Positions 8,406 through 62,136 of a DNA stretch of 64,000 nt are shown in pieces; position 1 is the stretch's first letter, and every line of letters begins with the position of its first letter. The stretch is taken from the NCBI GenBank assembly GCA_019635775.1, contig JAHBYU010000016.1:1-64000 (forward strand), in the 5' to 3' direction. The stretch is from Rhizobiaceae bacterium (GTDB lineage Bacteria; Pseudomonadota; Alphaproteobacteria; Rhizobiales; Rhizobiaceae). Below the pieces are notes generated by a model. The model was given only the letters and a program-made list of their open reading frames with translations, was not told the origin of the DNA and ran no database searches. The position numbers and the translations under genes are program-made.

Positions 8406-9179
8406 ATGATGATCATCGCCACGTTCAATATCAACGGCATCGAACGTCGCCTGCCGAACCTTCTTGATTGGCTTGCGGCGCGCAAACCCGATGTCGCGTG
8501 CCTGCAAGAGCTCAAGGCGGATCAGGGCCGGTTTCCCGAACAGGAACTGGCGGCGATCGGCTACAAGGCCGTCTGGCGAGGGCAAAAGACTTGGAACGGC
8601 GTGGCGATCCTTGCCCGGGGAAAAACGCCGGTCCTCACCAGGGACATGTTGCCGGGCGACACGTCCGAGACTCAGGCGCGCTACATCGAGGCTGCGGTGA
8701 ACGGAGTTCTGATTGCGTCGCTTTACGCCCCGAACGGCAACCCACAGCCGGGTCCGAAATTCGACTACAAGCTTGCATGGCTGGAGCGACTTCGCCTGCA
8801 TGCGACCGCCCTGCGAAAGACCGGAGCGCCGGTCGTTCTCGCGGGCGATTTCAACGTCGTGCCGACGGAGTTGGACATTTATCCAACAAGGTCCTACGCG
8901 GACAATGCGCTTGTGCAGCCCGAAAGCCGCGCGGCGTTCAAGCGGATAGTCGGACGAAGCTGGACTGACGCGCTTCGTGCCCGGTTCCCCGAACAGCGAA
9001 TATACACGTTCTGGGACTACAAGCGGCTGCGCTGGCAGCGCGACGCGGGCCTACGCATCGATCACCTCCTGCTGTCCCCTTCCATCCGGGCCAGGTTTGA
9101 AGATGCAGGGGTTGACCGCGAGGTGCGTGGTGTGGAGGGCGCGTCAGATCATGCGCCGGTGTGGATCAGGCTCGGCTGA
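8406..9179 (+). CDS. xth: Exodeoxyribonuclease III family AP endonuclease
   Basis: A 257-residue exonuclease/endonuclease/phosphatase-fold enzyme for base excision repair. Motifs: NINGIERRLPNLLDWL, the metal ligand Glu in CLQELKAD (about residue 36), GDFNVVPTELDIYP and the terminal SDHAPVWI with catalytic Asp-His. The start has two adjacent ATG codons. It points away from tuf and interrupts the usual tRNA-Gly/tuf neighbourhood. Confidence 0.93.
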   Translation: MMIIATFNINGIERRLPNLLDWLAARKPDVACLQELKADQGRFPEQELAAIGYKAVWRGQKTWNGVAILARGKTPVLTRDMLPGDTSETQARYIEAAVNGVLIASLYAPNGNPQPGPKFDYKLAWLERLRLHATALRKTGAPVVLAGDFNVVPTELDIYPTRSYADNALVQPESRAAFKRIVGRSWTDALRARFPEQRIYTFWDYKRLRWQRDAGLRIDHLLLSPSIRARFEDAGVDREVRGVEGASDHAPVWIRLG

Positions 9180-9207
9180 GGTCGACACGAGACATTGCGA
9201 CGAAAGC

Positions 9208-9281
9208 TGGAGCGGGTGAAGGGAATCGAACCCTCGTATTCAGCTTGGAAGGCTGCTGCTCTACCATTGAGCTACACCCGC
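9208..9281 (-). tRNA. tRNA-Gly (anticodon TCC)
   Basis: A 74-nt cloverleaf, GCGGGTGTAGCTCAATGG at the 5' end, anticodon loop CTTCCAA, T-arm GGGTTCGATTCCC and encoded CCA. It follows tRNA-Tyr by about 100 nt on the same strand and probably shares its transcript. Confidence 0.97.
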
Positions 9282-9384
9282 ACCGCGCTGGTTGCGCGGC
9301 ACCTTCATAATACAGCCGCGAGGAAAAAGCGACTTGTCCTCGGCACGACTGCAGTCTGGCGGTGCTTGGCTTCCGGTGCGGCAG

Positions 9385-9469
9385 TGGTGGAGGAGGTTGG
9401 ATTCGAACCAACGTAGGCTGAGCCAACGGATTTACAGTCCGTCCCCTTTAACCACTCGGGCACTCCTCC
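9385..9469 (-). tRNA. tRNA-Tyr (anticodon GTA)
   Basis: An 85-nt class II tRNA with a long variable arm, 5' GGAGGAGTGCCCGAGTGG, anticodon loop CTGTAAA and encoded CCA. It is the first gene of a Tyr-Gly tRNA pair. Confidence 0.97.
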
Positions 9470-9551
9470 GTACTGCCGCCGGAGCCATGCAACGAGGCTT
9501 TCGCTGGTCTTCGGTGCAGCCTTGCGGCCAACCCTTAAATCAGCGAAGCGC

Positions 9552-9580
9552 CTTATGGCCGCGCGCTTCGGCAGTGTCAA
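9552..9580 (-). promoter_or_regulatory. Promoter of the tRNA-Tyr/tRNA-Gly unit
   Basis: A perfect -35 TTGACA, 17-nt spacer and -10 CATAAG on the minus strand, placing the start of transcription about 75 nt upstream of tRNA-Tyr. Confidence 0.6.
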
Positions 9581-9688
9581 CCACGACAGTCTCGCTCGGC
9601 TCGAAATTTCCCAACGGTTTGTTTTCCGGCGTCGAAGGCCAGAAGGCCGCCATAGGCAACGGTCGGCATTCCCGGTATAGAGCCGGGC

Positions 9689-10546
9689 ATGACAGACGAT
9701 AAGAAATCAGGCACGCCCAAAGACCAGCACTATGCCCGGCTGCGTCGTGCCCATCGCGACCAGAAGACAGGTGTCGCAGGTCATCCGTCTGGGTTTCGGC
9801 CGCGCCAGCCCGTCCCGCCCGGCGAGGCGCCCGCTGAAGGGCTCGTGCGCCTCTACGGCATTCACACTGTGCGGGCGGCAATCGACAATCCGCGCAGGAA
9901 GATCGCGCGCATGCTGGTGACGCGCAACGCTGCCGAGCGGCTTTCCCTGCCCGATCTGGCTACCCTGCCCTTTCCGGCGGAACTGGTGGAGCCGAAGGAT
10001 ATCGACCGCCTGACGGGCAGCGATGCCGTGCATCAGGGCGTACTCGTGGAGGCGCGTCCGTTGAAACCCAAGCCGCTGGACGCGCTTGGGGATACACGGC
10101 TTGTCGTCGTTGTCGACCAGGTGACGGACCCGCACAATGTGGGTGCTATCATCCGCTCTGCCGTTGCCTTCGACGCCGGTGCGCTCATCACGACGTCGCG
10201 TCACAGTCCGACCGAAACCGGTGTGCTGGCCAAGTCGGCGTCTGGCGCGCTTGAACATATCGATCTGATCGAGGTCAGGAATCTTGCCGATGCGCTGACA
10301 AAACTGAGTGACGCGGGCTTCCAGACAATCGGCCTCGATTCGGATGGCCCGGCCGAGATGGAACAGACCTTTGCAGGCGACAAGGTTGCGCTTGTGCTGG
10401 GTGCCGAGGGCAAGGGATTGCGCCAGAAGACGCGCGAAACCGTCGATGCGCTGGCCAGATTGGATATGCCCGGAGCGATTCGTTCGCTTAACGTGTCCAA
10501 CGCGGCTGCGGTGGCCATGTATGCGGCGCGCAAATATCTGGGCTGA
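9689..10546 (+). CDS. rlmB: 23S rRNA (guanosine-2'-O-)-methyltransferase, TrmH/SpoU family
   Basis: A 285-residue SPOUT methyltransferase. The N-terminal 45 residues are basic and probably disordered; an RNA 2'-O-methylase substrate-binding domain follows (LYGIHTVRAAIDNPRRK), then the trefoil-knot domain with VVDQVTDPHNVGAIIRSA, LVLGAEGKGLR and SLNVSNAAAVAMYAAR, the three SpoU motifs. It opposes tRNA-Tyr, an arrangement common in rhizobia. Gm2251 in 23S rRNA is the likely target. Confidence 0.92.
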   Translation: MTDDKKSGTPKDQHYARLRRAHRDQKTGVAGHPSGFRPRQPVPPGEAPAEGLVRLYGIHTVRAAIDNPRRKIARMLVTRNAAERLSLPDLATLPFPAELVEPKDIDRLTGSDAVHQGVLVEARPLKPKPLDALGDTRLVVVVDQVTDPHNVGAIIRSAVAFDAGALITTSRHSPTETGVLAKSASGALEHIDLIEVRNLADALTKLSDAGFQTIGLDSDGPAEMEQTFAGDKVALVLGAEGKGLRQKTRETVDALARLDMPGAIRSLNVSNAAAVAMYAARKYLG

Positions 10547-52324: not shown

Positions 52325-53857
52325 CTATTCCGCAGCGGCATTTTGCAAGCCGCGGCCGTTTTCCTTCATGAACCTGTCAAGATCGCCCGCCTCCTGCGGA
52401 GTCAGGACAAGTCCTCGTTTAGTCCTGCGCCAGAGCACGTCTTCAGCGGTTACAGCCCATTCCTGGTCTATCAGGTACCGGACTTCCTTCTCGTAGAGAT
52501 CGGCCCCGAAATTGCGTCCGAGCTGATCGATCGCGGTGGAAGAGCCGAGAACCTTTCTGGCGCGTGTGCCGTAGAGCCTCGTCAGGCGACGGGCGAAGCG
52601 CTCATCGAGGAACGGATAGTCGTCCCGCAAGCGCCTGACCTGTGCGTCGAACCCGGTCGCCGGGAAATCTCCGCCCGGCAAAGGCGCTTCGGCCGTCCAG
52701 GACTTCCCCTTGACGCCAAGCGCGTGCCCGATCTTCTCCAGCATGTGCTCCGAGAGCCGGCGATACGTCGTTATCTTCCCGCCGAAGATGTCGATCAGCG
52801 GAGCCTGCCCCTGCGGATGATCGACCTTCAGCACGTAGTCGCGCGTCGCTTCCTGCGCCTTGGACGCGCCGTCGTCATAGAGCGGTCGCACGCCCGAATA
52901 GGTCCATACGATGTCGGCGGGCGTCACCGGTTCGGCGAAATACTCGCTGGCCGCGTCGCAGAGGTAGTTGATCTCCTCCTCGCTGATCCTCACCTCGTGG
53001 GGATCGCCCGGATAGTCGCGATCCGTGGTGCCAATCAGCGTGAAGTCTTCCTCGTAGGGTATGGCGAAGATGATGCGACCGTCTTCGTTCTGGAAGAAAT
53101 AGGCGCGCGGATCTTCGAACTTCCTGCGAATGACGATGTGGCTGCCCTGAACGAGGCGCACATTGTGCACGTCATTCTGGCCGATCGTCTCCGCCAGGAC
53201 ATGGTCGACCCAAGGTCCGGCCGCATTGACGAGCAACCTCGCCCGGACCGTCTCCAATTCCCCGCTTCGCTCGTCCAGCACGTCGATCGACCAGTGATCC
53301 GCATCGCGCCGCGCTGTCGTCACTTTCGCATGGGTGCGGATGGTGGCCCCACGATCCGCGGCGTCACGCGCATTGAGCGCCACCAATCGCGCGTCGTTTA
53401 CCCAGCCGTCGGAATATTCGAATGCGCGGGCGAAGTTGGGCTTGAGCGGTTTGCCGGCTGGATCGTTGCGCATGTCGAGCGTGCGCGTGGCGGGCAGCAG
53501 CTTGCGACCGCCGATATGGTCGTACAGGAACAGCCCGAGCCGAACCATCCAGGCCGGTCGTGGCCCGCCCTTCGTAAACGGCAGGACGAAGCGGAGCGGC
53601 CAGATGATGTGCGGCGCATTGCGCCAGAGCACTTCGCGCTCCATCAGCGATTCACGCACCAGCCGGAATTCGTAATATTCGAGGTAGCGAAGCCCGCCAT
53701 GAATGAGCTTGGTGGAAGCGGACGAAGTGCCGCTGGCGAGATCGTTCATTTCAGCGAGGTAGACCGAATAGCCACGCCCGGCGGCGTCGCGGGCGATGCC
53801 GCAGCCGTTTATTCCGCCGCCGATGACAAAGACGTCATGGATGGGGGGCGTGTCCAA
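52325..53857 (-). CDS. glpD: Glycerol-3-phosphate dehydrogenase, FAD-dependent
   Basis: A 510-residue membrane-associated flavoenzyme oxidising glycerol-3-phosphate to dihydroxyacetone phosphate. The FAD motif is FVIGGGINGCGIARDAAGRG; SGTSSASTKLIHGGLRYLE and VNAAGPWVDHVLA are family segments. A TTG start is supported by AGGAGGAAGC directly upstream; an in-frame GTG seven codons earlier precedes that RBS. Confidence 0.94.
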   Translation of the reverse strand: MDTPPIHDVFVIGGGINGCGIARDAAGRGYSVYLAEMNDLASGTSSASTKLIHGGLRYLEYYEFRLVRESLMEREVLWRNAPHIIWPLRFVLPFTKGGPRPAWMVRLGLFLYDHIGGRKLLPATRTLDMRNDPAGKPLKPNFARAFEYSDGWVNDARLVALNARDAADRGATIRTHAKVTTARRDADHWSIDVLDERSGELETVRARLLVNAAGPWVDHVLAETIGQNDVHNVRLVQGSHIVIRRKFEDPRAYFFQNEDGRIIFAIPYEEDFTLIGTTDRDYPGDPHEVRISEEEINYLCDAASEYFAEPVTPADIVWTYSGVRPLYDDGASKAQEATRDYVLKVDHPQGQAPLIDIFGGKITTYRRLSEHMLEKIGHALGVKGKSWTAEAPLPGGDFPATGFDAQVRRLRDDYPFLDERFARRLTRLYGTRARKVLGSSTAIDQLGRNFGADLYEKEVRYLIDQEWAVTAEDVLWRRTKRGLVLTPQEAGDLDRFMKENGRGLQNAAAE

Positions 53858-53914
53858 GCTTCCTCCTCGCTTCCGCACTGCACCATTGTGGTATCTACGC
53901 GAAAGCGTTTTGGA

Positions 53915-53963: not shown

Positions 53964-54728
53964 TCATTGCGATGTTTCGATCAGTTCAACTTCGGCATCG
54001 CGGCATATATCCCGGATGGGCGCGATCTCGCAGCGGTCGGTTATGAAGGTGTCCACCTGGCTCAGATGACCGATCCGCACAGGGGCCGTTCGCTCGAACT
54101 TGGTCGCGTCGGCGACGAGGATCACGTGCCGCGCATTGGCAATGATCGCTTGCGCGACCTTCACCTCGCGAAAGTCGAAATCGAGAAGCGCGCCGTCATG
54201 GTCGATCGCGGAGGCGCCGATAACGGCGTAGTCGACCTTGAACTGCTTGATGAAGTCTACGGCAGCCTCTCCGACGACGCCGCCGTCCGAGCCGCGAACG
54301 ACACCGCCGGCGATAACCACCTCGATCGACGGATATACCCGCATCCTGTTGGCAACATTGATGTTATTGGTGATCACCATGAGCCCGTCATGGTCGAGCA
54401 GCGCCTTGCTCACCGCTTCCGTCGTGGTGCCGATATTGATGAAGAGCGAGGCGTGGTCGGGAATGAGCCTTGCGGCTGCGTGCCCGATGGCATCCTTTTC
54501 GTCGGCTGCGATCTTGCGTCTGGCCTCATACTCCACATTCTCGATCCCGGACGGGAAAAGCGCCCCGCCGTGGATACGCGTGAGGAGCCGCTGCTCGCAC
54601 AGGTCGTTGAGATCCTTGCGGATCGTCTGGGGTGTTACGGCGAAATGCTGCGCCAGTTCATCGACAAGGACGCGTCCGCGGTCCTTTGCCATCTGGATGA
54701 TTTCGGTATGCCTTGGGGAAAGGAACAT
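53964..54728 (-). CDS. glpR: GlpR, DeoR-family repressor of glycerol genes
   Basis: A 254-residue regulator. N-terminal DeoR helix-turn-helix (RVLVDELAQHFAVTPQTIRK, residues 19-38) and a C-terminal sugar-phosphate sensor domain (LFINIGTTTEAVSKALLDHD). Located directly upstream of glpD on the same strand. In relatives glycerol-3-phosphate relieves repression. Confidence 0.9.
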   Translation of the reverse strand: MFLSPRHTEIIQMAKDRGRVLVDELAQHFAVTPQTIRKDLNDLCEQRLLTRIHGGALFPSGIENVEYEARRKIAADEKDAIGHAAARLIPDHASLFINIGTTTEAVSKALLDHDGLMVITNNINVANRMRVYPSIEVVIAGGVVRGSDGGVVGEAAVDFIKQFKVDYAVIGASAIDHDGALLDFDFREVKVAQAIIANARHVILVADATKFERTAPVRIGHLSQVDTFITDRCEIAPIRDICRDAEVELIETSQ

Positions 54729-54740
54729 GGGACGCCTCCA

Positions 54741-54775
54741 CTTTCGTTTCTAGCACAGGCGAGCATAAACGAAAG
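54741..54775. promoter_or_regulatory. Inverted repeat upstream of glpR, candidate GlpR operator
   Basis: Perfect 9-bp dyad CTTTCGTTT / AAACGAAAG separated by 17 nt, beginning 12 nt upstream of the glpR start codon. Its TTTCG/CGAAA core recurs near glpD, suggesting autoregulation. Confidence 0.55.
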
Positions 54776-54827
54776 CGAATATCCGTCACTTTCCGGACGA
54801 CCGAATTTTATCGCTAATCTTCCGTGG

Positions 54828-56255
54828 CTACCGCGTTGCGTCTGCCGTTATCCGCGCCGCGATCTCGGCGATAACGTCGAAGGCGGTGTCGACATCTGCC
54901 TCCGTCACCTCGAACTGGCCGGTCTGGAAACGGATCGCCAGGCGTCCGTCCACGCGGGTTTGCGTCAGGTAGATGCGGCCGTCGTCGTTGATGGCGTTGA
55001 CCAGCGCCAGGTTGTGCTCGTCGGCGCGGGTTTCGTCGCACGGCTGGTGGCGAAACGAAAAGAGCGAGAGCATAGGCTCCGTGACGATCTCAAATCCGGG
55101 AACCTCAGCCAACCGCGACGCGAGGTTCTCGCTCCAGCGCACATGGTTCCGGATCATCTGGCGAAGCGCCTCCAGCCCATGCGCGCGCAGCAGGAACCAG
55201 AGTTTGAGCGCGCGGAAGCGGCGTCCGAGCGGCACGGTCCATTCGGAATAGTTGATGATCCCGTCCTTGCCGTGCGTCTTGAGGTATTCCGGGCGGATCG
55301 CAAGTGTCCGCACCAGAGATTCGGGATCTCTAATGAAGTGGATGGAGCAGTCGAACTGCGCGCCGAGCCACTTGTGCGGGTTGAAGACAACCGAGTCGGC
55401 GTACTCCACACCAAACCAGAAATGCCTGTATTCCGGGCAGATCATGGCGGAGCCCGCCCACGCGGCATCGACATGGACATATAGTCCGTTCCTGCGCGCT
55501 ATATCGATGACCGCCGCAATATCGTCCGTCCCGCCCACGCTTGTGCCGCCGACGCTGGCGATCACGCCGGCCGGCATGAAGCCAGCGGTGCGATCCGCCT
55601 CGATTGCCTCTTCGAGTGCTGCCGGCACCATCGAACGCCAGCGGCCTCCCGTGGGTATCCGCACGAGGTTTTCCTCGCCGATGCCTGCCACCCAGATGGC
55701 GCGGTCTATGGAAGTGTGGACCTGGTCGGAACAGTAGATGCGAAGTCGCGGCTGGCCAGAAAGCCCTTCGCGATTGCCCGTCCATTGCAGCGCCCGTTCG
55801 CGCATGACCAGCACCGCCGAAAGGGTTGCCGACGATGCCGAGTCCTGGATCACGCCCGAGAAGTCCTCGGGCAGGCCCAGGGCCTGCCGCAGCCAGTCGA
55901 TCACCTTCGTTTCGAGTTCCGTGGCGGCAGGCGATGTCTGCCAGAGCATGCATTGCGCGGCCATGGCGCTGACGAGATATTCCGCCACCACCGAAACCGG
56001 CGCCGCATTGGCCGGAAAATACGCAAAGAAGCGCGGATGCTGCCAATGGGTCATCCCCGGCACGATGTCGCGCTCGAAATCGGCGAATATGTCCTCCATG
56101 GGCTCCGGGGCTTCGGGTGCGGAAAGCGCGATACGCGATCCTGTCTCGCCGGGTTGCACCTTCGAGCGAACTGGCTTGTCGCGCAGGCTGGCCCGGTAGT
56201 CCACTCCCCAGTCGGCTGCACGTCGCGACCAGTCTCGGAACTCTTCGCTGTCCAT
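54828..56255 (-). CDS. Pyridoxal-dependent decarboxylase, aromatic-L-amino-acid type
   Basis: A 475-residue group II decarboxylase. The PLP lysine is K295 in VVFNPHKWLGAQFDCS; the carboxylate/PLP Asp is in GLYVHVDAAWAGSAMI. MTHWQHPRFFAYFPANAAPV is typical of aromatic-amino-acid decarboxylases (Trp, Tyr, DOPA or Phe). Substrate cannot be fixed from sequence. It lies 72 nt downstream of the Anbu gene and could share its transcript. Confidence 0.88.
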   Translation of the reverse strand: MDSEEFRDWSRRAADWGVDYRASLRDKPVRSKVQPGETGSRIALSAPEAPEPMEDIFADFERDIVPGMTHWQHPRFFAYFPANAAPVSVVAEYLVSAMAAQCMLWQTSPAATELETKVIDWLRQALGLPEDFSGVIQDSASSATLSAVLVMRERALQWTGNREGLSGQPRLRIYCSDQVHTSIDRAIWVAGIGEENLVRIPTGGRWRSMVPAALEEAIEADRTAGFMPAGVIASVGGTSVGGTDDIAAVIDIARRNGLYVHVDAAWAGSAMICPEYRHFWFGVEYADSVVFNPHKWLGAQFDCSIHFIRDPESLVRTLAIRPEYLKTHGKDGIINYSEWTVPLGRRFRALKLWFLLRAHGLEALRQMIRNHVRWSENLASRLAEVPGFEIVTEPMLSLFSFRHQPCDETRADEHNLALVNAINDDGRIYLTQTRVDGRLAIRFQTGQFEVTEADVDTAFDVIAEIAARITADATR

Positions 56256-56327
56256 ATCCCCTCCCCGCCGAAGCTCGATCGCTACCAGCCTCTACCGGAT
56301 AACCCCGTTGTCGGGAACGCCAGACGT

Positions 56328-57062
56328 TCAGTCTTCCGCAAAGTCCGGCAGCGCCTTGAAGGCCTGCTTGAGCGCGTTCGACCAGCCGTCCGAGACGGTG
56401 CGGTAGTAGGGATCGTCCTGCGCGATGCGTTTTCTCATCCCAACCTTGAAGCTGTCCGTCTCATAAAAGAGCAGGTCAAGCGGCAACCCGACGGAAAGGT
56501 TCGATTTCAGGGTGGAGTCAAACGAGACAAGTAGCAGTTTCACCGTCTCCGCGAAGCTCATGCCTTTGTCATAGGCCCTTACGATGATCGGTTTGCCGTA
56601 CTTTGTCTCTCCGACCTGGAAGAAGGGCGTATCTTCGCTTGCTTCTATGAAGTTGCCTTCCGGATAGATCATGAAGAGCCGGGGTTCTGTGCCCCTGATC
56701 TGTCCGCCGAGAATGAATGAGGCGTTGAAATAGCTGTCTGCTTTCTGGCCGACGGGCGCGGAATTGGCGATGACCTCCTTGACCACGTTACCGACAAGCC
56801 GCGCCGTCTGGTACATGGACGGCATCTCCAGCAAGGTGGGAGCGCGGTCGCTGACGGCCTTCGTCCGTTCGTCGAGCATGCTGACGACGGATTGGGTGGT
56901 GGCGAGGTTCCCGGCCGACATCAGCACGATGACCCGCTCGCCGGGCTCTTCCCAGACGTGCATCTTGCGGAACGTGGAAATGGAGTCGATGCCCGCGTTG
57001 GTCCGCGTGTCCGACATGAACACGAGTCCCCGATCGATCTTCAATCCAACGCAATAGGTCAT
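56328..57062 (-). CDS. Anbu, proteasome-related Ntn hydrolase
   Basis: A 244-residue protein of the Anbu (ancestral beta subunit) family, related to HslV and proteasome beta subunits. The N-terminus MTYCVGLKIDRGLVFMSDTR exposes Thr2 as nucleophile after Met removal; TNAGIDSISTFRKMHVWEEP and LLLVSFDSTLKSNLSVGLPL are family segments. It ends a tightly packed group with transglutaminase-like, alpha-E and ATP-grasp genes, which is the recurrent Anbu context. Its substrate is unknown. Confidence 0.9.
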   Translation of the reverse strand: MTYCVGLKIDRGLVFMSDTRTNAGIDSISTFRKMHVWEEPGERVIVLMSAGNLATTQSVVSMLDERTKAVSDRAPTLLEMPSMYQTARLVGNVVKEVIANSAPVGQKADSYFNASFILGGQIRGTEPRLFMIYPEGNFIEASEDTPFFQVGETKYGKPIIVRAYDKGMSFAETVKLLLVSFDSTLKSNLSVGLPLDLLFYETDSFKVGMRKRIAQDDPYYRTVSDGWSNALKQAFKALPDFAED

Positions 57063-57091
57063 GGAATCAATTCTGGCTGCGGTAAGCGCGA

Positions 57092-57886
57092 TTACTGCTC
57101 CACCGTGACCGATACGGCAAGCTGTTCTTCAGCCGGTCCCAGGCGTATCCCGGACACCGGCATGGCGTCGCGGTAGTCGCGTCCCACAGCCATGCGCACA
57201 TAGCGCTCATCGGGCGAGATGCCGTTCGAGGGGTCGAATGCAACCCATCCCAGGCCCGGAACGTGCGCTTCAGCCCAGGCATGACCGGCTGCCTGGTCGA
57301 TCGTCTCGTTAAGCATCAGGTAGCCGCTGATGTAGCGCGCCGGAAAGCCCAGCAGCCGCGCGGCAGCCGCAAAGATGTGCGCATGATCCTGGCACACGCC
57401 CGATGCCTGTTTCAGCGCCTGCTCTGCGGTGGTGCCAGGATGCGTGGCGCCGATAGTGTATGCCACCCGAACGCCGATCGTGGTCATCAGCTGGTGCAGC
57501 CTCTCCAGTTCGGACCCCTGCCCCACAGACATGGCGAGTTCACGGACGCCGTCTCCAGGTTCCGTCAGGTCGGTCTGCTGCTGAAAGAGCCAGAGAGGCG
57601 CAAATCCTTTGTGTTCGCCGAACACGCCGGCGGTGTCGAATGTTTCCACCTCGCCCCAGGCGTCAATCCCGATGACGGTGGCATCGCTCGCCACGCTGAC
57701 CAGCCGCGTGTCGTTCTCGAAATGGTCGACGAAGCGGGCCTCTTCGCTGGCGCCTTCTACCTTGAGCGACCAGTTGTGAATGGTCTGTGTCCTGCCGCTG
57801 CGCGGCACCAGCCGCAGGCGCTGCAATGCATACTGCACCGGCGCGTCATAGCGGTATTCGGTCCGGTGCGAGATTTTAAGCCTCAT
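57092..57886 (-). CDS. Transglutaminase-like cysteine protease-fold protein
   Basis: A 264-residue protein. A beta-rich N-terminal domain (MRLKISHRTEYRYDAPVQYA) is followed by the transglutaminase core. The predicted triad is C165 in SGVCQDHAH, H202 in GHAWAEAHVPG and D218 in WVAFDPSNG. In this context it probably cleaves or forms an isopeptide bond. It lies 29 nt upstream of Anbu and 23 nt after the alpha-E gene. Confidence 0.9.
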   Translation of the reverse strand: MRLKISHRTEYRYDAPVQYALQRLRLVPRSGRTQTIHNWSLKVEGASEEARFVDHFENDTRLVSVASDATVIGIDAWGEVETFDTAGVFGEHKGFAPLWLFQQQTDLTEPGDGVRELAMSVGQGSELERLHQLMTTIGVRVAYTIGATHPGTTAEQALKQASGVCQDHAHIFAAAARLLGFPARYISGYLMLNETIDQAAGHAWAEAHVPGLGWVAFDPSNGISPDERYVRMAVGRDYRDAMPVSGIRLGPAEEQLAVSVTVEQ

Positions 57887-57909
57887 GGCCGCCCCATCGC
57901 CTGTGCCGC

Positions 57910-58851
57910 TCAGTGGAAACGATAGCTGGCCGCGACCTCATCGCCGAGCCGGTTGTTGTCGCGGATGAAGTCCGTCAGGAATTCGTGCAGGCCCTCGTCG
58001 AATATCTGCTTGACGGAGCTGACTTTCAGCTTCGTCAGCGTGTTTTCGACGAGCGCGTGGCAAGGCAGCCTCTGGCCGTAGTCTTCCTCGCGAAAGCGCA
58101 GATGCTCGGCCAGGAACCGGTAGCAGAAGGTCAGCGAGCGCGGCATGCGCCCATTCAGGATGAGATAGTCGGCAATATTTGTCGGCTTGTACGCGGCGTC
58201 ATAGACCCAGCGGTAGGAGCGGTGCGCCGACACGGAGCGCAGGATCGATTCCCATTGCGAATTGTCCAGTGTCGAGCCGACCCACGAAACCGACGGCAGC
58301 AACACGTAGTACTTCACGTCGAGGATGCGCGCCGTATTGTCGGCGCGCTCCACATATGTCCCGATCTGCGCGAAGTCGAAGATTTCGTTGCGCAGCATCG
58401 TGCCGTAGAAACAGCCCCTTATCAGCGCCGTCTCGCGCTTGATCGTGTCGAGCACGCTGGGCAGGTCGCGCTCGTCGATCGGGTTGGCGAGCACCCTTTT
58501 CAGCGACATCCACGCTTCGTTGATCGCTTCCCACGTTTCGCGCGTAAGGGCTGTGCGCACCATGCGTGCGTTGAAGCGCGCGGTCTCCATGGATGACAGA
58601 GCACTCGATGGATTGGTCGTGTCGCGGATCAGGAAATCGGACACCGTCTCGGACGTGTACTCGCCATACTTTGCGGCGAAAGCAAAATCCACTCCGGCCG
58701 ACAGCACGACCGACTTCCATTCTTCCTCGGCGCTTTGCGTTCTGGTCAGCGCCATGCGCAGGCCCGCATCGACGAGGCGCGCCATGTTTTCGGCCCGCTC
58801 GATGTAGCGGTTCATCCAGTAAAGACCGTTTGCGACGCGTCCGAGAAGCAT
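57910..58851 (-). CDS. Alpha-E domain protein
   Basis: A 313-residue all-helical protein of the alpha-E (formerly DUF403) family: MLLGRVANGLYWMNRYIERA at the start, then RGCFYGTMLRNEIFDFAQIG and the conserved TYVERADNTARILDVKYYVL. The family always accompanies ATP-grasp/transglutaminase genes and has no established activity. The start is 1 nt after the ATP-grasp stop, indicating coupled translation. Confidence 0.9.
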   Translation of the reverse strand: MLLGRVANGLYWMNRYIERAENMARLVDAGLRMALTRTQSAEEEWKSVVLSAGVDFAFAAKYGEYTSETVSDFLIRDTTNPSSALSSMETARFNARMVRTALTRETWEAINEAWMSLKRVLANPIDERDLPSVLDTIKRETALIRGCFYGTMLRNEIFDFAQIGTYVERADNTARILDVKYYVLLPSVSWVGSTLDNSQWESILRSVSAHRSYRWVYDAAYKPTNIADYLILNGRMPRSLTFCYRFLAEHLRFREEDYGQRLPCHALVENTLTKLKVSSVKQIFDEGLHEFLTDFIRDNNRLGDEVAASYRFH

Positions 58852-58852
58852 T

Positions 58853-60271
58853 CTAGTCGTCCAGCACCCAGGTGTCTTTTGTTCCACCGCCCTGCGAGGA
58901 GTTCACCACCAGCGACCCCTGCTTGAGCGCGACGCGTGTCAGCCCGCCCGGCACGATCTGGATACGGTCCGAAACCAGCACGAACGGCCGAAGGTCGACA
59001 TGGCGCGGCGACAGGCCCGCTTCTGTCATGATGGGGCAGGTCGACAGCGAAAGCGTAGGCTGGGCGATGTAGTTGCTGGGCTTGGCCGCCAGCTTCTTGG
59101 AGAAGTCTTCGCGTTCCTTCTTCGTCGCCGTCGGGCCTACCAGCATCCCGTATCCGCCCGAACCGTGAACTTCCTTTACCACCAGGTCTTTTAGGTTCTC
59201 CTGTACGTATTTCAGACTGTCCGGTTCCGAGCATCGCCAGGTCTGGATGTTTTGCAGGATTGCCTTCCGACCCGTGTAGAATTCCACGATGTCGGGCATG
59301 TAGGAATAGATCGCCTTGTCGTCCGCGATGCCGGTTCCCGGCGCGTTGGCGATGGTTATGTTGCCGGCGCGGTAAACATCCATGATGCCGGGTACGCCGA
59401 GCGCCGAGTCCGGCCGGAACGTCAGCGGATCGAGAAAGGCGTCGTCCACCCGCCGGTAGAGCACGTCGATCTGCTTGTATCCCTCGGTGGTGCGCATCGC
59501 GACGTGACCGTCAACCACGCGCAGGTCGTGCCCCTCCACGAGTTCAACGCCCATCTGGTCGGCAAGGAAGGCATGTTCGAAATAGGCCGAGTTGTAGCTG
59601 CCGGGTGTCAGCACGGCGATGGTCGGCGTCCCGCGCAGGTTTTCGGGGCGCACGGCCGCAAGCGACTGGCGAAGCAACTGCGGATAGTTCTCGACCGGCC
59701 TCACCCGGATCTTCTGGAACAGCTCGGGAAAGAGCTGCATCATCGTTTCCCGGTTCTCCAGCATGTAGGAGACCCCGGAAGGTGTCCGAGCATTGTCCTC
59801 GAGGACGAAGAACTCGTTTTCGGCGGTCCGTACGATGTCGACGCCGATGATATGCGTGTAGACCCCTGCTGGGGGTCGCACCCCGATCATTTCGGGAAGG
59901 AAGGCTTCGTTTTCCGCGATGAGCCGCTTGGGCACGCGACCCGCACGCAAAATTTCCTGACGGTGATAGATGTCGTCGAGGAAGGCGTTCAGGGCCTGCA
60001 CCCGTTGCTCTATGCCCTGGGTAAGGCGCCGCCATTCCGTTCCGGACAGGATACGCGGAACGATGTCGAACGGGATCAGGCGCTCGGCCGCCTCTTCCTC
60101 TCCGTAGACCGCGAACGTAATGCCCGTCTTTCGGAACACGCGTTCGGCGTCGCGCATCTTCTCGCTTAGTCTTGCCGGATCCTGCTGCTGCCACCAACGA
60201 TCATAGGCAGCATATGATTGTCGAACGCCGGTGCTATCCGGCTGCATTTCATCGAACGCTACCAAGCGCAT
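58853..60271 (-). CDS. Circularly permuted ATP-grasp type 2 protein
   Basis: About 472 residues. Family landmarks: RQSYAAYDRWWQQQDPARLS, FVLEDNARTPSGVSYMLENR (metal/ATP-binding region), PTIAVLTPGSYNSAYFEHAF, and DLVVKEVHGSGGYGMLVGPT. These proteins are predicted to ligate amino or carboxylate groups using ATP, possibly making a peptide tag. The start is uncertain: an ATG six codons upstream is possible. First gene of the four-gene cluster. The 318 nt upstream (60272-60589) contain no convincing gene. Confidence 0.9.
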   Translation of the reverse strand: MRLVAFDEMQPDSTGVRQSYAAYDRWWQQQDPARLSEKMRDAERVFRKTGITFAVYGEEEAAERLIPFDIVPRILSGTEWRRLTQGIEQRVQALNAFLDDIYHRQEILRAGRVPKRLIAENEAFLPEMIGVRPPAGVYTHIIGVDIVRTAENEFFVLEDNARTPSGVSYMLENRETMMQLFPELFQKIRVRPVENYPQLLRQSLAAVRPENLRGTPTIAVLTPGSYNSAYFEHAFLADQMGVELVEGHDLRVVDGHVAMRTTEGYKQIDVLYRRVDDAFLDPLTFRPDSALGVPGIMDVYRAGNITIANAPGTGIADDKAIYSYMPDIVEFYTGRKAILQNIQTWRCSEPDSLKYVQENLKDLVVKEVHGSGGYGMLVGPTATKKEREDFSKKLAAKPSNYIAQPTLSLSTCPIMTEAGLSPRHVDLRPFVLVSDRIQIVPGGLTRVALKQGSLVVNSSQGGGTKDTWVLDD

Positions 60272-60589
60272 ACTCCCCTGTGACACCATTTCAAAATGTC
60301 TCGCGCGGGAAAAGCAAGGGCAATCGCCGAAAAAGGCTAGGTTTTGATCATTTGTCGAAATTTGCTGAAAATGCAGGCACGGACCGCGTCAGGACAAGCG
60401 AAAACTGCACACTTGCCATGCAACTCGCCGGGCAGACGTTTTGCCAGGACAGAATTGCGGGGCGGAATCGCCAGGGAAGAGCGTTAAGCCGACATGTCAT
60501 GAGACTGAACCAAACGAGCGCGCTGCGCGTATCACGTTTGAGACTGATTTCCGGATAGCTCCAGATCCGGCCCACAAAGGGGACTGACC

Positions 60590-61009
60590 ATGAGCATAGC
60601 CCGTCCTGCACTGCTCGCATTTGTCGCCCTGCTCCCCTCTCTCGCTTTCGCCGGCGATACGGACGTGCGGGCCGCGCAGGGCACGGTTGAATCTCAGCTC
60701 AGGGCCTTCCAGTCCAACAACGGCGAGCTTGCCTATTCCTTCGCGGCTCCAAGCATCAAGCGGATGTTCCCGACCGTCGACATCTTCATGGGCATGGTCG
60801 ACACAGCCTATCAGCCCGTCCGAAAGCCCCGGAGTTTTTCATTCGGCGAGGCTAAGGAACTGGGCAATGGCAGGATTGAACAGGATGTGCTGCTTACCGG
60901 CCCGGACGGTCTGGAATACGAGGCCGAGTATACGCTTGAGCTGCAGCCTGACGGAATCTACCGCATCACAAGCGTGAGGCTGAAGAAGTCGCAGGCCATA
61001 GGCGCCTAG
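60590..61009 (+). CDS. DUF4864 family exported protein
   Basis: A 139-residue protein with a signal peptide ([20 protein letters not shown]) and the DUF4864 pattern [20 protein letters not shown], then [20 protein letters not shown] and a C-terminal beta-rich part. A GGGGA RBS precedes the ATG. The stop codon region overlaps the convergent tgt by 4 nt. Function unknown. Confidence 0.8.
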
Positions 61010-62136
61010 AGCGCGGGCAGGTCGCCTCGCGCCCAGCCCTCGGAGATTTCTGCGGATCGCTCGGCAAATCTCCCCGCCTCGATCGCGTCACGGATATCGC
61101 GCATCAGCCGCTGATAGTAGGCGAGATTGTTCCAGGTCAGCAGCATCGCACCCAGCGCTTCCTGAGAGCGCACTAGGTGATGCAGATAGGCGCGTGAGTA
61201 GTCCCTAGCGGCGGGGCAATCGCTTTCTTCGTCGAGCGGGCGCGGGTCGTCGGCATGGCGCGCGTTGCGCAGGTTTATCTTGCCGCGCCGCGTGTATGCG
61301 AGGCCATGCCGCCCTGCCCTTGTCGGCATGACGCAGTCGAACATGTCGATGCCCCGCGCCACCGATTTCAGGATGTCGTCAGGCGTACCAACTCCCATCA
61401 GATAGCGCGGTTTTTCATCCGGAAGCTCGGGACAGGTGATGTCGAGCATCTCGAGCATCACCGCCTGCGGCTCGCCGACGGCAAGGCCGCCGACCGCATA
61501 TCCTTTCAGATCCAGCGCCTTCAACGCCTGCGCCGACCGCACGCGCAGATTTGGGACATCGCCACCCTGCACGATGCCGAACATCGCCTTGCCCGGCTGG
61601 TTGCCGAATGCCGTCTTGCAGCGCTCTGCCCATCGCAGCGACAGCTCCATGGCGCGCTCGATCTCCTTCGGCTCGGCTGGCAGCGCCACGCATTCGTCGA
61701 GCTGCATCTGGATATCGGAATCGAGCAGCCCCTGTATCTCGATCGACCGTTCCGGGGACATGTCGTATGCCGCGCCATCGATATGCGAGCGGAAAGTCAC
61801 GCCGTTCTCGGTCAGCTTCCTGAGCTGCGACAGCGACATCACCTGGAAGCCGCCGCTGTCGGTCAGGATCGGATGCGGCCAGCGTGCGAACTCATGCAGC
61901 CCGCCCAGCCGCGCCATCCGCTCCGCGCCCGGCCGAAGCATCAGATGGTAGGTGTTGCCGAGAATGATGTCGGAGCCAAGCTCGCGCACCTGATCGAGAT
62001 ACATTGCCTTGACAGTGCCAGCGGTGCCCACCGGCATGAATGCCGGCGTTCGCACGGTCCCGCGCGGCATCGACACCTCGCCGCGCCTGGCTTTCCCATC
62101 TGTTGCGAGAACCCGGAACGTGAAGGTTTCGCTCAT
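61006..62136 (-). CDS. tgt: tRNA-guanine transglycosylase
   Basis: A 376-residue enzyme exchanging guanine-34 for preQ1 in GUN tRNAs. [35 protein letters not shown] (catalytic Asp) and [20 protein letters not shown] are signatures; [14 protein letters not shown] holds the second Asp. Zinc ligands appear in [20 protein letters not shown], although the expected Cys cluster seems shortened to a single visible Cys there. Overlaps the queA stop by 4 nt. Confidence 0.93.

Follow-up and report, generated by a model that had tools for sequence, protein, structure and literature searches.

Does an aromatic amino acid decarboxylase encoded directly behind an Anbu operon take part in what the operon does? 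The question is raised by a locus on the minus strand of a 64,000-nucleotide stretch from a Rhizobiaceae bacterium (assembly GCA_019635775.1, contig JAHBYU010000016.1; hereafter the window, meaning that whole stretch). There, genes for a circularly permuted ATP-grasp ligase, an alpha-E protein, a transglutaminase-like protein and the proteasome-like hydrolase Anbu are followed by a gene for a pyridoxal phosphate (PLP)-dependent decarboxylase, and an initial annotation proposed that this enzyme could supply an amine for ligation. We arrive at a different answer, to which we give a probability of roughly 0.8. The four genes form an ordinary Anbu operon, and the decarboxylase is a separate aromatic-amine enzyme, associated with homoprotocatechuate (hpa) genes in the family, that neighbours the cluster on the chromosome without being its partner. 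As a clue to the Anbu substrate, the decarboxylase most likely misleads in this lineage, and recognizing this saves work on amine ligation; the analysis also names the pathway that accompanies the enzyme in relatives and yields a testable prediction of an HpaR regulon.

The four-gene cluster and the published Anbu operon

Open reading frames, Pfam families and structure matches agreed with the initial annotation on the coordinates, strand, spacings and families of the four genes. The ATP-grasp ligase (58853-60271; 472 amino acids, aa) belongs to CP_ATPgrasp_2 (Pfam, 2.5e-166) and matches the solved structure 3n6x (E 8e-196). The alpha-E protein (57910-58851; about 313 aa; Pfam Alpha-E, 5.6e-91) is predicted to be all-helical with a mean AlphaFold2 confidence (pLDDT) of 89.4; it has no meaningful match among solved structures (best E 0.0056), and the confident predicted model gave no usable fold match. 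The transglutaminase-like (papain-like) protein (57092-57886; 264 aa; Transglut_core 2.3e-23, Bact_transglu_N 5.4e-20) shows a weaker structural match, to 3isr (1.1e-12). Anbu (56328-57062; 244 aa), a proteasome-like N-terminal nucleophile hydrolase (Pfam Proteasome, 1.2e-7), matches two solved Anbu structures, 5loy (E 6.9e-96) and 5nyj (1.5e-86). The transglutaminase residues C165, H202 and D218 and the threonine nucleophile of Anbu (T1, D17 and K32 once the initiator Met is removed) are present as claimed. From the ATP-grasp gene through to the decarboxylase, the spacings are 1, 23, 29 and 72 nucleotides (nt), with all genes on the minus strand. All window genes from glpD through tgt were identified, and none encodes an AAA+ unfoldase.

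This gene set has been published (PMC5666114; PMC6376114, both as excerpted), with genomic analyses by Valas and Bourne (2008) and Iyer et al. (2009) cited therein. According to the same excerpts, Anbu relatives assemble into a split ring or lock-washer, one ATP-grasp protein of such clusters releases phosphate from ATP, no peptidase activity of Anbu on proteasome substrates was detected, and a role in peptide synthesis or tagging, with Anbu doing the hydrolysis, has been put forward. An N-terminal Thr, Asp17 and Lys32/33 are given as diagnostic Anbu residues in the excerpt of PMC6376114, and the window Anbu has the N-terminal Thr, Asp17 and Lys32. Among 70 fetched Anbu loci from the same bacterial family, 68 carry the four genes in identical order and strand; of the remaining two, L134 is truncated where its contig ends and L128 has Anbu alone. 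The window thus shares with the published operon its four families, their order, the single strand and the catalytic residues, and differs in nothing of substance, the flanking genes alone being lineage-specific. It is an ordinary copy of that operon. The initial annotation had described the context as conserved and the substrate as not known, in line with both the 68 loci and the excerpted papers.

Judged from the families and the literature, the ATP-grasp protein most likely joins a carboxylate and an amine at the expense of ATP, giving a peptide or isopeptide. The alpha-E and transglutaminase-like proteins would act on its product, the papain fold serving acyl transfer or hydrolysis, and Anbu would hydrolyze an amide bond in the peptide-like product of the cluster. 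The RimK/RimB and RloABC systems presumably use an ATP-grasp class other than that of the window cluster. These Pseudomonas systems share the pairing of an ATP-grasp protein with a hydrolase, and one of them has a transglutaminase-fold protein, but they have an aspartic protease in place of Anbu and no alpha-E (PMC12239564, as excerpted).

Distribution of the decarboxylase

The decarboxylase gene (54828-56255, minus strand; 475 aa) lies downstream of Anbu on the same strand, as annotated, and its aromatic type is borne out by Pyridoxal_deC (8.3e-97) and by structure matches. These include 7xin (E 1.3e-115) and other aromatic amino acid decarboxylases; the match to the aromatic-L-amino-acid and 3,4-dihydroxyphenylalanine (DOPA) decarboxylases 7xin, 6eei and 1js3 is full-length. 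K295, H180, D263 and Y336 align with the motifs of these enzymes, and we take them to act as the PLP lysine and as the His, Asp and loop Tyr. The protein is accordingly predicted to be a group II PLP decarboxylase of the aromatic amino acid type. Single residues did not decide its substrate; differently named relatives align alike in the motifs.

Its distribution was followed in 247 genomes of the family, with orthologues defined by at least 60% identity (16 rows at 29-32% identity were dropped as paralogues) and with gene positions for adjacency and co-occurrence counts transferred by hand from tables. Anbu is present in 148 genomes and the decarboxylase in 87. Both are present in 54 genomes, where chance predicts 52.1 (odds ratio, OR, 1.15, p=0.68), and in 31 of 109 genera, where it predicts 27.7 (p=0.23), in tests that assume independence among genomes or genera, an assumption that does not hold. 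Linkage is nevertheless real: in 33 genomes from 18 genera the decarboxylase lies 16-700 nt, and often less than 110 nt, downstream of Anbu in the same orientation. The initial annotation had named a lack of linkage in all relatives as the outcome that would speak against an extended operon, and the 33 genomes show linkage. By adjacency the decarboxylase travels with the four genes in part; by dependence it does not. Outside the family, the two genes are adjacent in none of the 16 genomes that have both (decarboxylase at 40% identity or more, counted by hand, some assemblies fragmented), the nearest pair being 24 kb apart.

Thirty genomes with an Anbu of at least 74% identity have no decarboxylase. 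We fetched 29 of these loci (the remaining one, in G240, ends at a contig edge), one more from G424 at 71% identity, and 50 of the 54 decarboxylase loci that are not beside Anbu, up to 20 kb each. Among 80 named alpha-E loci, some of which duplicate earlier ones (L097, for example, is L222), 22 have the decarboxylase within the stretch; 12 named loci lacking the gene contained no remnant of it. A quick tree built from the four cluster proteins of 69 loci shows 16 changes in decarboxylase presence, at least 12 by the starred branches. L099 was left out of this tree and of the one used for the insert described below, and was labelled as lacking Anbu; its Anbu match had been lost in an overlap filter.

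The conserved background runs tgt, DUF4864, cluster, decarboxylase, glpR, glpD. In the window these flanking genes encode the queuine tRNA-ribosyltransferase Tgt (61006-62136, minus), a DUF4864 protein divergent to the cluster (60590-61009, plus), a GlpR-type DeoR regulator (53964-54728, minus) and the glycerol-3-phosphate dehydrogenase GlpD (52325-53878, minus). A glpR gene lies within 4.5 kb of Anbu in 26 of 32 loci with the decarboxylase and in 20 of 37 without it. Two loci (L164, L165) read tgt-decarboxylase-glpR with the four cluster genes absent, and two others (L174, L175) keep the decarboxylase by glpR with Anbu elsewhere in the genome (L127, L128). In a Mesorhizobium locus (L246), the ATP-grasp, alpha-E and transglutaminase genes are followed by the decarboxylase and glpR, and Anbu was not detected. 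The decarboxylase has been gained or lost often while the cluster persisted, and because of these dissociations we tie it to the chromosome segment and not to Anbu.

Association with homoprotocatechuate genes

A much stronger association was found with HpaD. The decarboxylase shares 54 genomes with HpaD where 21.8 would be expected (OR 31, p=6e-23, n=247), and 33 genera where 14.9 would be; HpaD was counted in 62 of 66 genomes, four matches under the family cut-off having been dropped. In 16 of the 54 genomes with both, the two genes are at most 300 nt apart, and in 14 of 55 fetched loci the decarboxylase directly follows hpaD inside an hpa run, whose full arrangement is hpaR-hpaF-E-D-[decarboxylase]-G-H-I. 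Representatives of HpaR, HpaE, HpaD, HpaI and HpaH pass the NCBIfam cut-offs; those of HpaF and HpaG match the right families below the cut-off. HpaD is also present in 13 of the 33 genomes with an Anbu-linked decarboxylase, as compared with 8 of 160 genomes without the decarboxylase. Between anbu and the decarboxylase, three g201 genomes carry hpaR and one (G407) carries an hpaF-like gene, which hints at the route by which the decarboxylase arrived.

A palindrome, TTAACATGTTAA, accompanies these genes. With one mismatch allowed, the fetched loci (3.49 Mb) contain it 29 times: just upstream of hpaF or hpaR at 13 sites, 45-105 nt upstream of the decarboxylase at another 13 and elsewhere at 3. 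Because the loci had been fetched around these genes, position counts are not a genome-wide sample. Exact copies number 18, against 0.034 expected from base composition. Ten of the 13 decarboxylase-side sites sit in the Anbu-decarboxylase gap of Mesorhizobium-type loci. Among 22 hand-chosen whole genomes, 20 of them Anbu-linked, the exact palindrome is confined to those whose HpaR is over the cut-off: 7 of these 10 have it, and 0 of the other 12; a reversed control pattern was found in none of the 22. In three genomes (G069, G105, G136) the sole exact copy is the one in the Anbu-decarboxylase gap. The excerpt of PMC7180172 gives the HpaR site of Yersinia pseudotuberculosis as TTAA-XXXX-TTAA, with a similar site in E. 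coli W. The palindrome fits this published site, and HpaR may bind in the gap. A near-match of the palindrome also stands just downstream of Anbu (position 9545) in a Mesorhizobium locus without the decarboxylase (L238), where no remnant of the gene was found.

Compared with the known hpa catabolic cluster and its HpaR, orthologues of the window decarboxylase thus adjoin hpaD in 16 family genomes and some share TTAA-N4-TTAA, whereas the window copy lies outside an hpa context. In the family, the decarboxylase accompanies the breakdown of homoprotocatechuate (3,4-dihydroxyphenylacetate), likely feeding it from DOPA or tyrosine. A chromosomal rearrangement probably brought it to the anbu-glpR position, in some relatives along with hpaR, hpaF or the HpaR-type site. 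In the window genus, where HpaD, HpaR and the site were not found, it would remain as a neighbour, perhaps on the Anbu transcript.

Several results weigh against this reading. The window genome and three genus-mates have no HpaD (E<=1e-60), no HpaR (E<=1e-30) and no exact palindrome; the proposed pathway is therefore missing there, and the hpa role is that of the family. An intact TTAA-N4-TTAA is present in only 11 of 52 linked loci (duplicates included), the window's not among them, and three of the 10 HpaR-bearing genomes lack the exact palindrome. Adjacency to Anbu is commoner than adjacency to hpaD, and in 11 linked genomes the gap to Anbu is only 16-40 nt, which suits co-transcription. 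The decarboxylase lies beside Anbu in 20 of 33 HpaD-negative genomes as against 13 of 54 HpaD-positive ones. Finally, decarboxylase presence is clustered by descent on the cluster tree: shuffles gave a mean of about 23 changes, and 2 of 500 were as low as the 16 observed.

In the window, the 72-nt gap between Anbu and the decarboxylase (56256-56327, minus strand) has no TTAA-N4-TTAA, and our scan printed no terminator-like site in it. It did print overlapping pairs of such sites just inside the anbu 3' end (56472-56492) and in the 99-nt gap between the decarboxylase and glpR (54771-54798); with 8 sites in total against 5.8 in shuffles, none is strong evidence. Co-transcription of anbu and the decarboxylase is therefore possible in the window genome. 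It would suit a five-gene operon whose decarboxylase supplies an aromatic amine, such as tyramine or dopamine, for attachment by the ATP-grasp ligase and removal by Anbu. The recurrent same-strand adjacency at short distance, the gap free of printed terminators and the 20 HpaD-negative genomes with the decarboxylase beside Anbu all speak for such an operon, which could apply only to lineages without the hpa pathway, such as that of the window. Even among HpaD-negative genomes, however, Anbu and the decarboxylase co-occur in 24 against 20.2 expected (p=0.17), and there is no overall excess. The 30 decarboxylase-free genomes with a close Anbu, the 12-16 changes on the cluster tree, the lack of adjacency outside the family, the HpaR-type site between the two genes in ten Mesorhizobium-type loci, and L246, which keeps the trio and the decarboxylase with no Anbu detected, all argue against a joint function. 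We consider this operon very improbable; the proposed amine supply to the cluster is unsupported by the co-occurrence, the gains and losses and the dissociations at glpR, and the decarboxylase tracks hpa genes and the HpaR-type site instead.

The same short gap on one strand would also be explained by read-through, with the decarboxylase co-transcribed with Anbu here and acting alone, for instance in amine production or pH homeostasis, with no hpa pathway. The window genus lacks HpaR and an exact HpaR-type site, and no copper amine oxidase to degrade the amine was found in the window genome (other amine oxidase families were not searched), both of which favour this explanation. We hold it to be rather unlikely, and we prefer an hpa-associated enzyme that has become a chromosomal neighbour of an ordinary Anbu operon.

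An insert in relatives and variants of the cluster

In 28 of 147 loci (duplicates included), the junction of the ATP-grasp and alpha-E genes contains an insert, with 428-653 nt between the matches of the two genes. Carriers include a near relative (L097/L222) as well as L099, L103, L106, L112, L117, L121 and L140; the window has an empty junction near 58851-58855, and its genome has no match to TIGR02436. The insert consists of tandem heptamer repeats, a gene of the 23S_rRNA_IVP family (TIGR02436, a four-helix bundle) and heptamer repeats in reverse complement. Of 24 distinct inserts, 21 have a best repeat lag of 7 on either side; the heptamer varies by genome (GGGAATA, GGCAGTC, GTGAGTA and others) and is the same or nearly so in both arms of most inserts. 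Folded together with its flanks, one insert scores better than 100 of 100 shuffles (z -4.5). Across the cluster tree, inserts are scattered almost at random (12 changes; mean 14.5 and minimum 9 in shuffles), and seven further copies, with such arms seen by eye, lie at other gene junctions in five genomes.

The excerpt of PMC4990558 calls the intervening sequence (IVS) of Coxiella 23S rRNA selfish and notes its terminal inverted repeats and its heptamers, and that of PMC4692102 reports heptamer repeats between Xanthomonas ORFs, some as inverted pairs. A narrow literature search by title found no work on IVS-type elements in protein operons. We tentatively put at slightly under even the chance that the junction of the ATP-grasp stop and the alpha-E start is a recurrent landing site of a small IVS-like element, which would begin at the upstream stop codon and end shortly before the next start codon, and whose arms could form a long hairpin in the transcript. 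In that case protein-coding operons, too, are parasitized by the IVS elements known from 23S rRNA, and excision of the hairpin from the mRNA by RNase III may be what makes the insert tolerable. Such an element inside an operon may merit its own study in the relatives.

A sigma-54 promoter upstream of the ATP-grasp gene was considered and rejected. The window has TGGCAAAACGTCTGC at 60432-60446 (minus strand), which is not conserved; a -24/-12 site upstream of the gene reached p<=0.05 in shuffles in 6 of 68 regions, near chance. For related clusters, the excerpts of PMC5491218 and PMC12316311 do report control by nitrogen or sigma-54.

The make-up of the cluster also varies among relatives. The lone Anbu of L128 (genome G413, 9001-9732) has 77% identity, and no ATP-grasp, alpha-E or transglutaminase match was found within its 20-kb stretch. 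Anbu was detected in 57 of the 80 named alpha-E loci. Most of the other 23 come from Burkholderiaceae and Rhizobium and hold ATP-grasp, alpha-E and transglutaminase genes only, or these followed by a transglutaminase-DUF2126 protein; the trio without detected Anbu is seen in L264, L269, L273, L275, L280-L286, L294 and L297-L301. Because such trio-only loci exist, Anbu looks like an optional part of the cluster. The window genome itself, in which the search listed a single Anbu match and no further one, has a second locus (G000:C1:220000-229500; L221, L002) with no Anbu gene seen, where genes for a transglutaminase-DUF2126 protein of 1122 aa, a fusion of ATP-grasp and alpha-E of about 813 aa and a transglutaminase-like protein of 292 aa stand in a row. 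L280 has, besides the trio, another ATP-grasp gene and a gene for a transglutaminase-DUF2126 protein.

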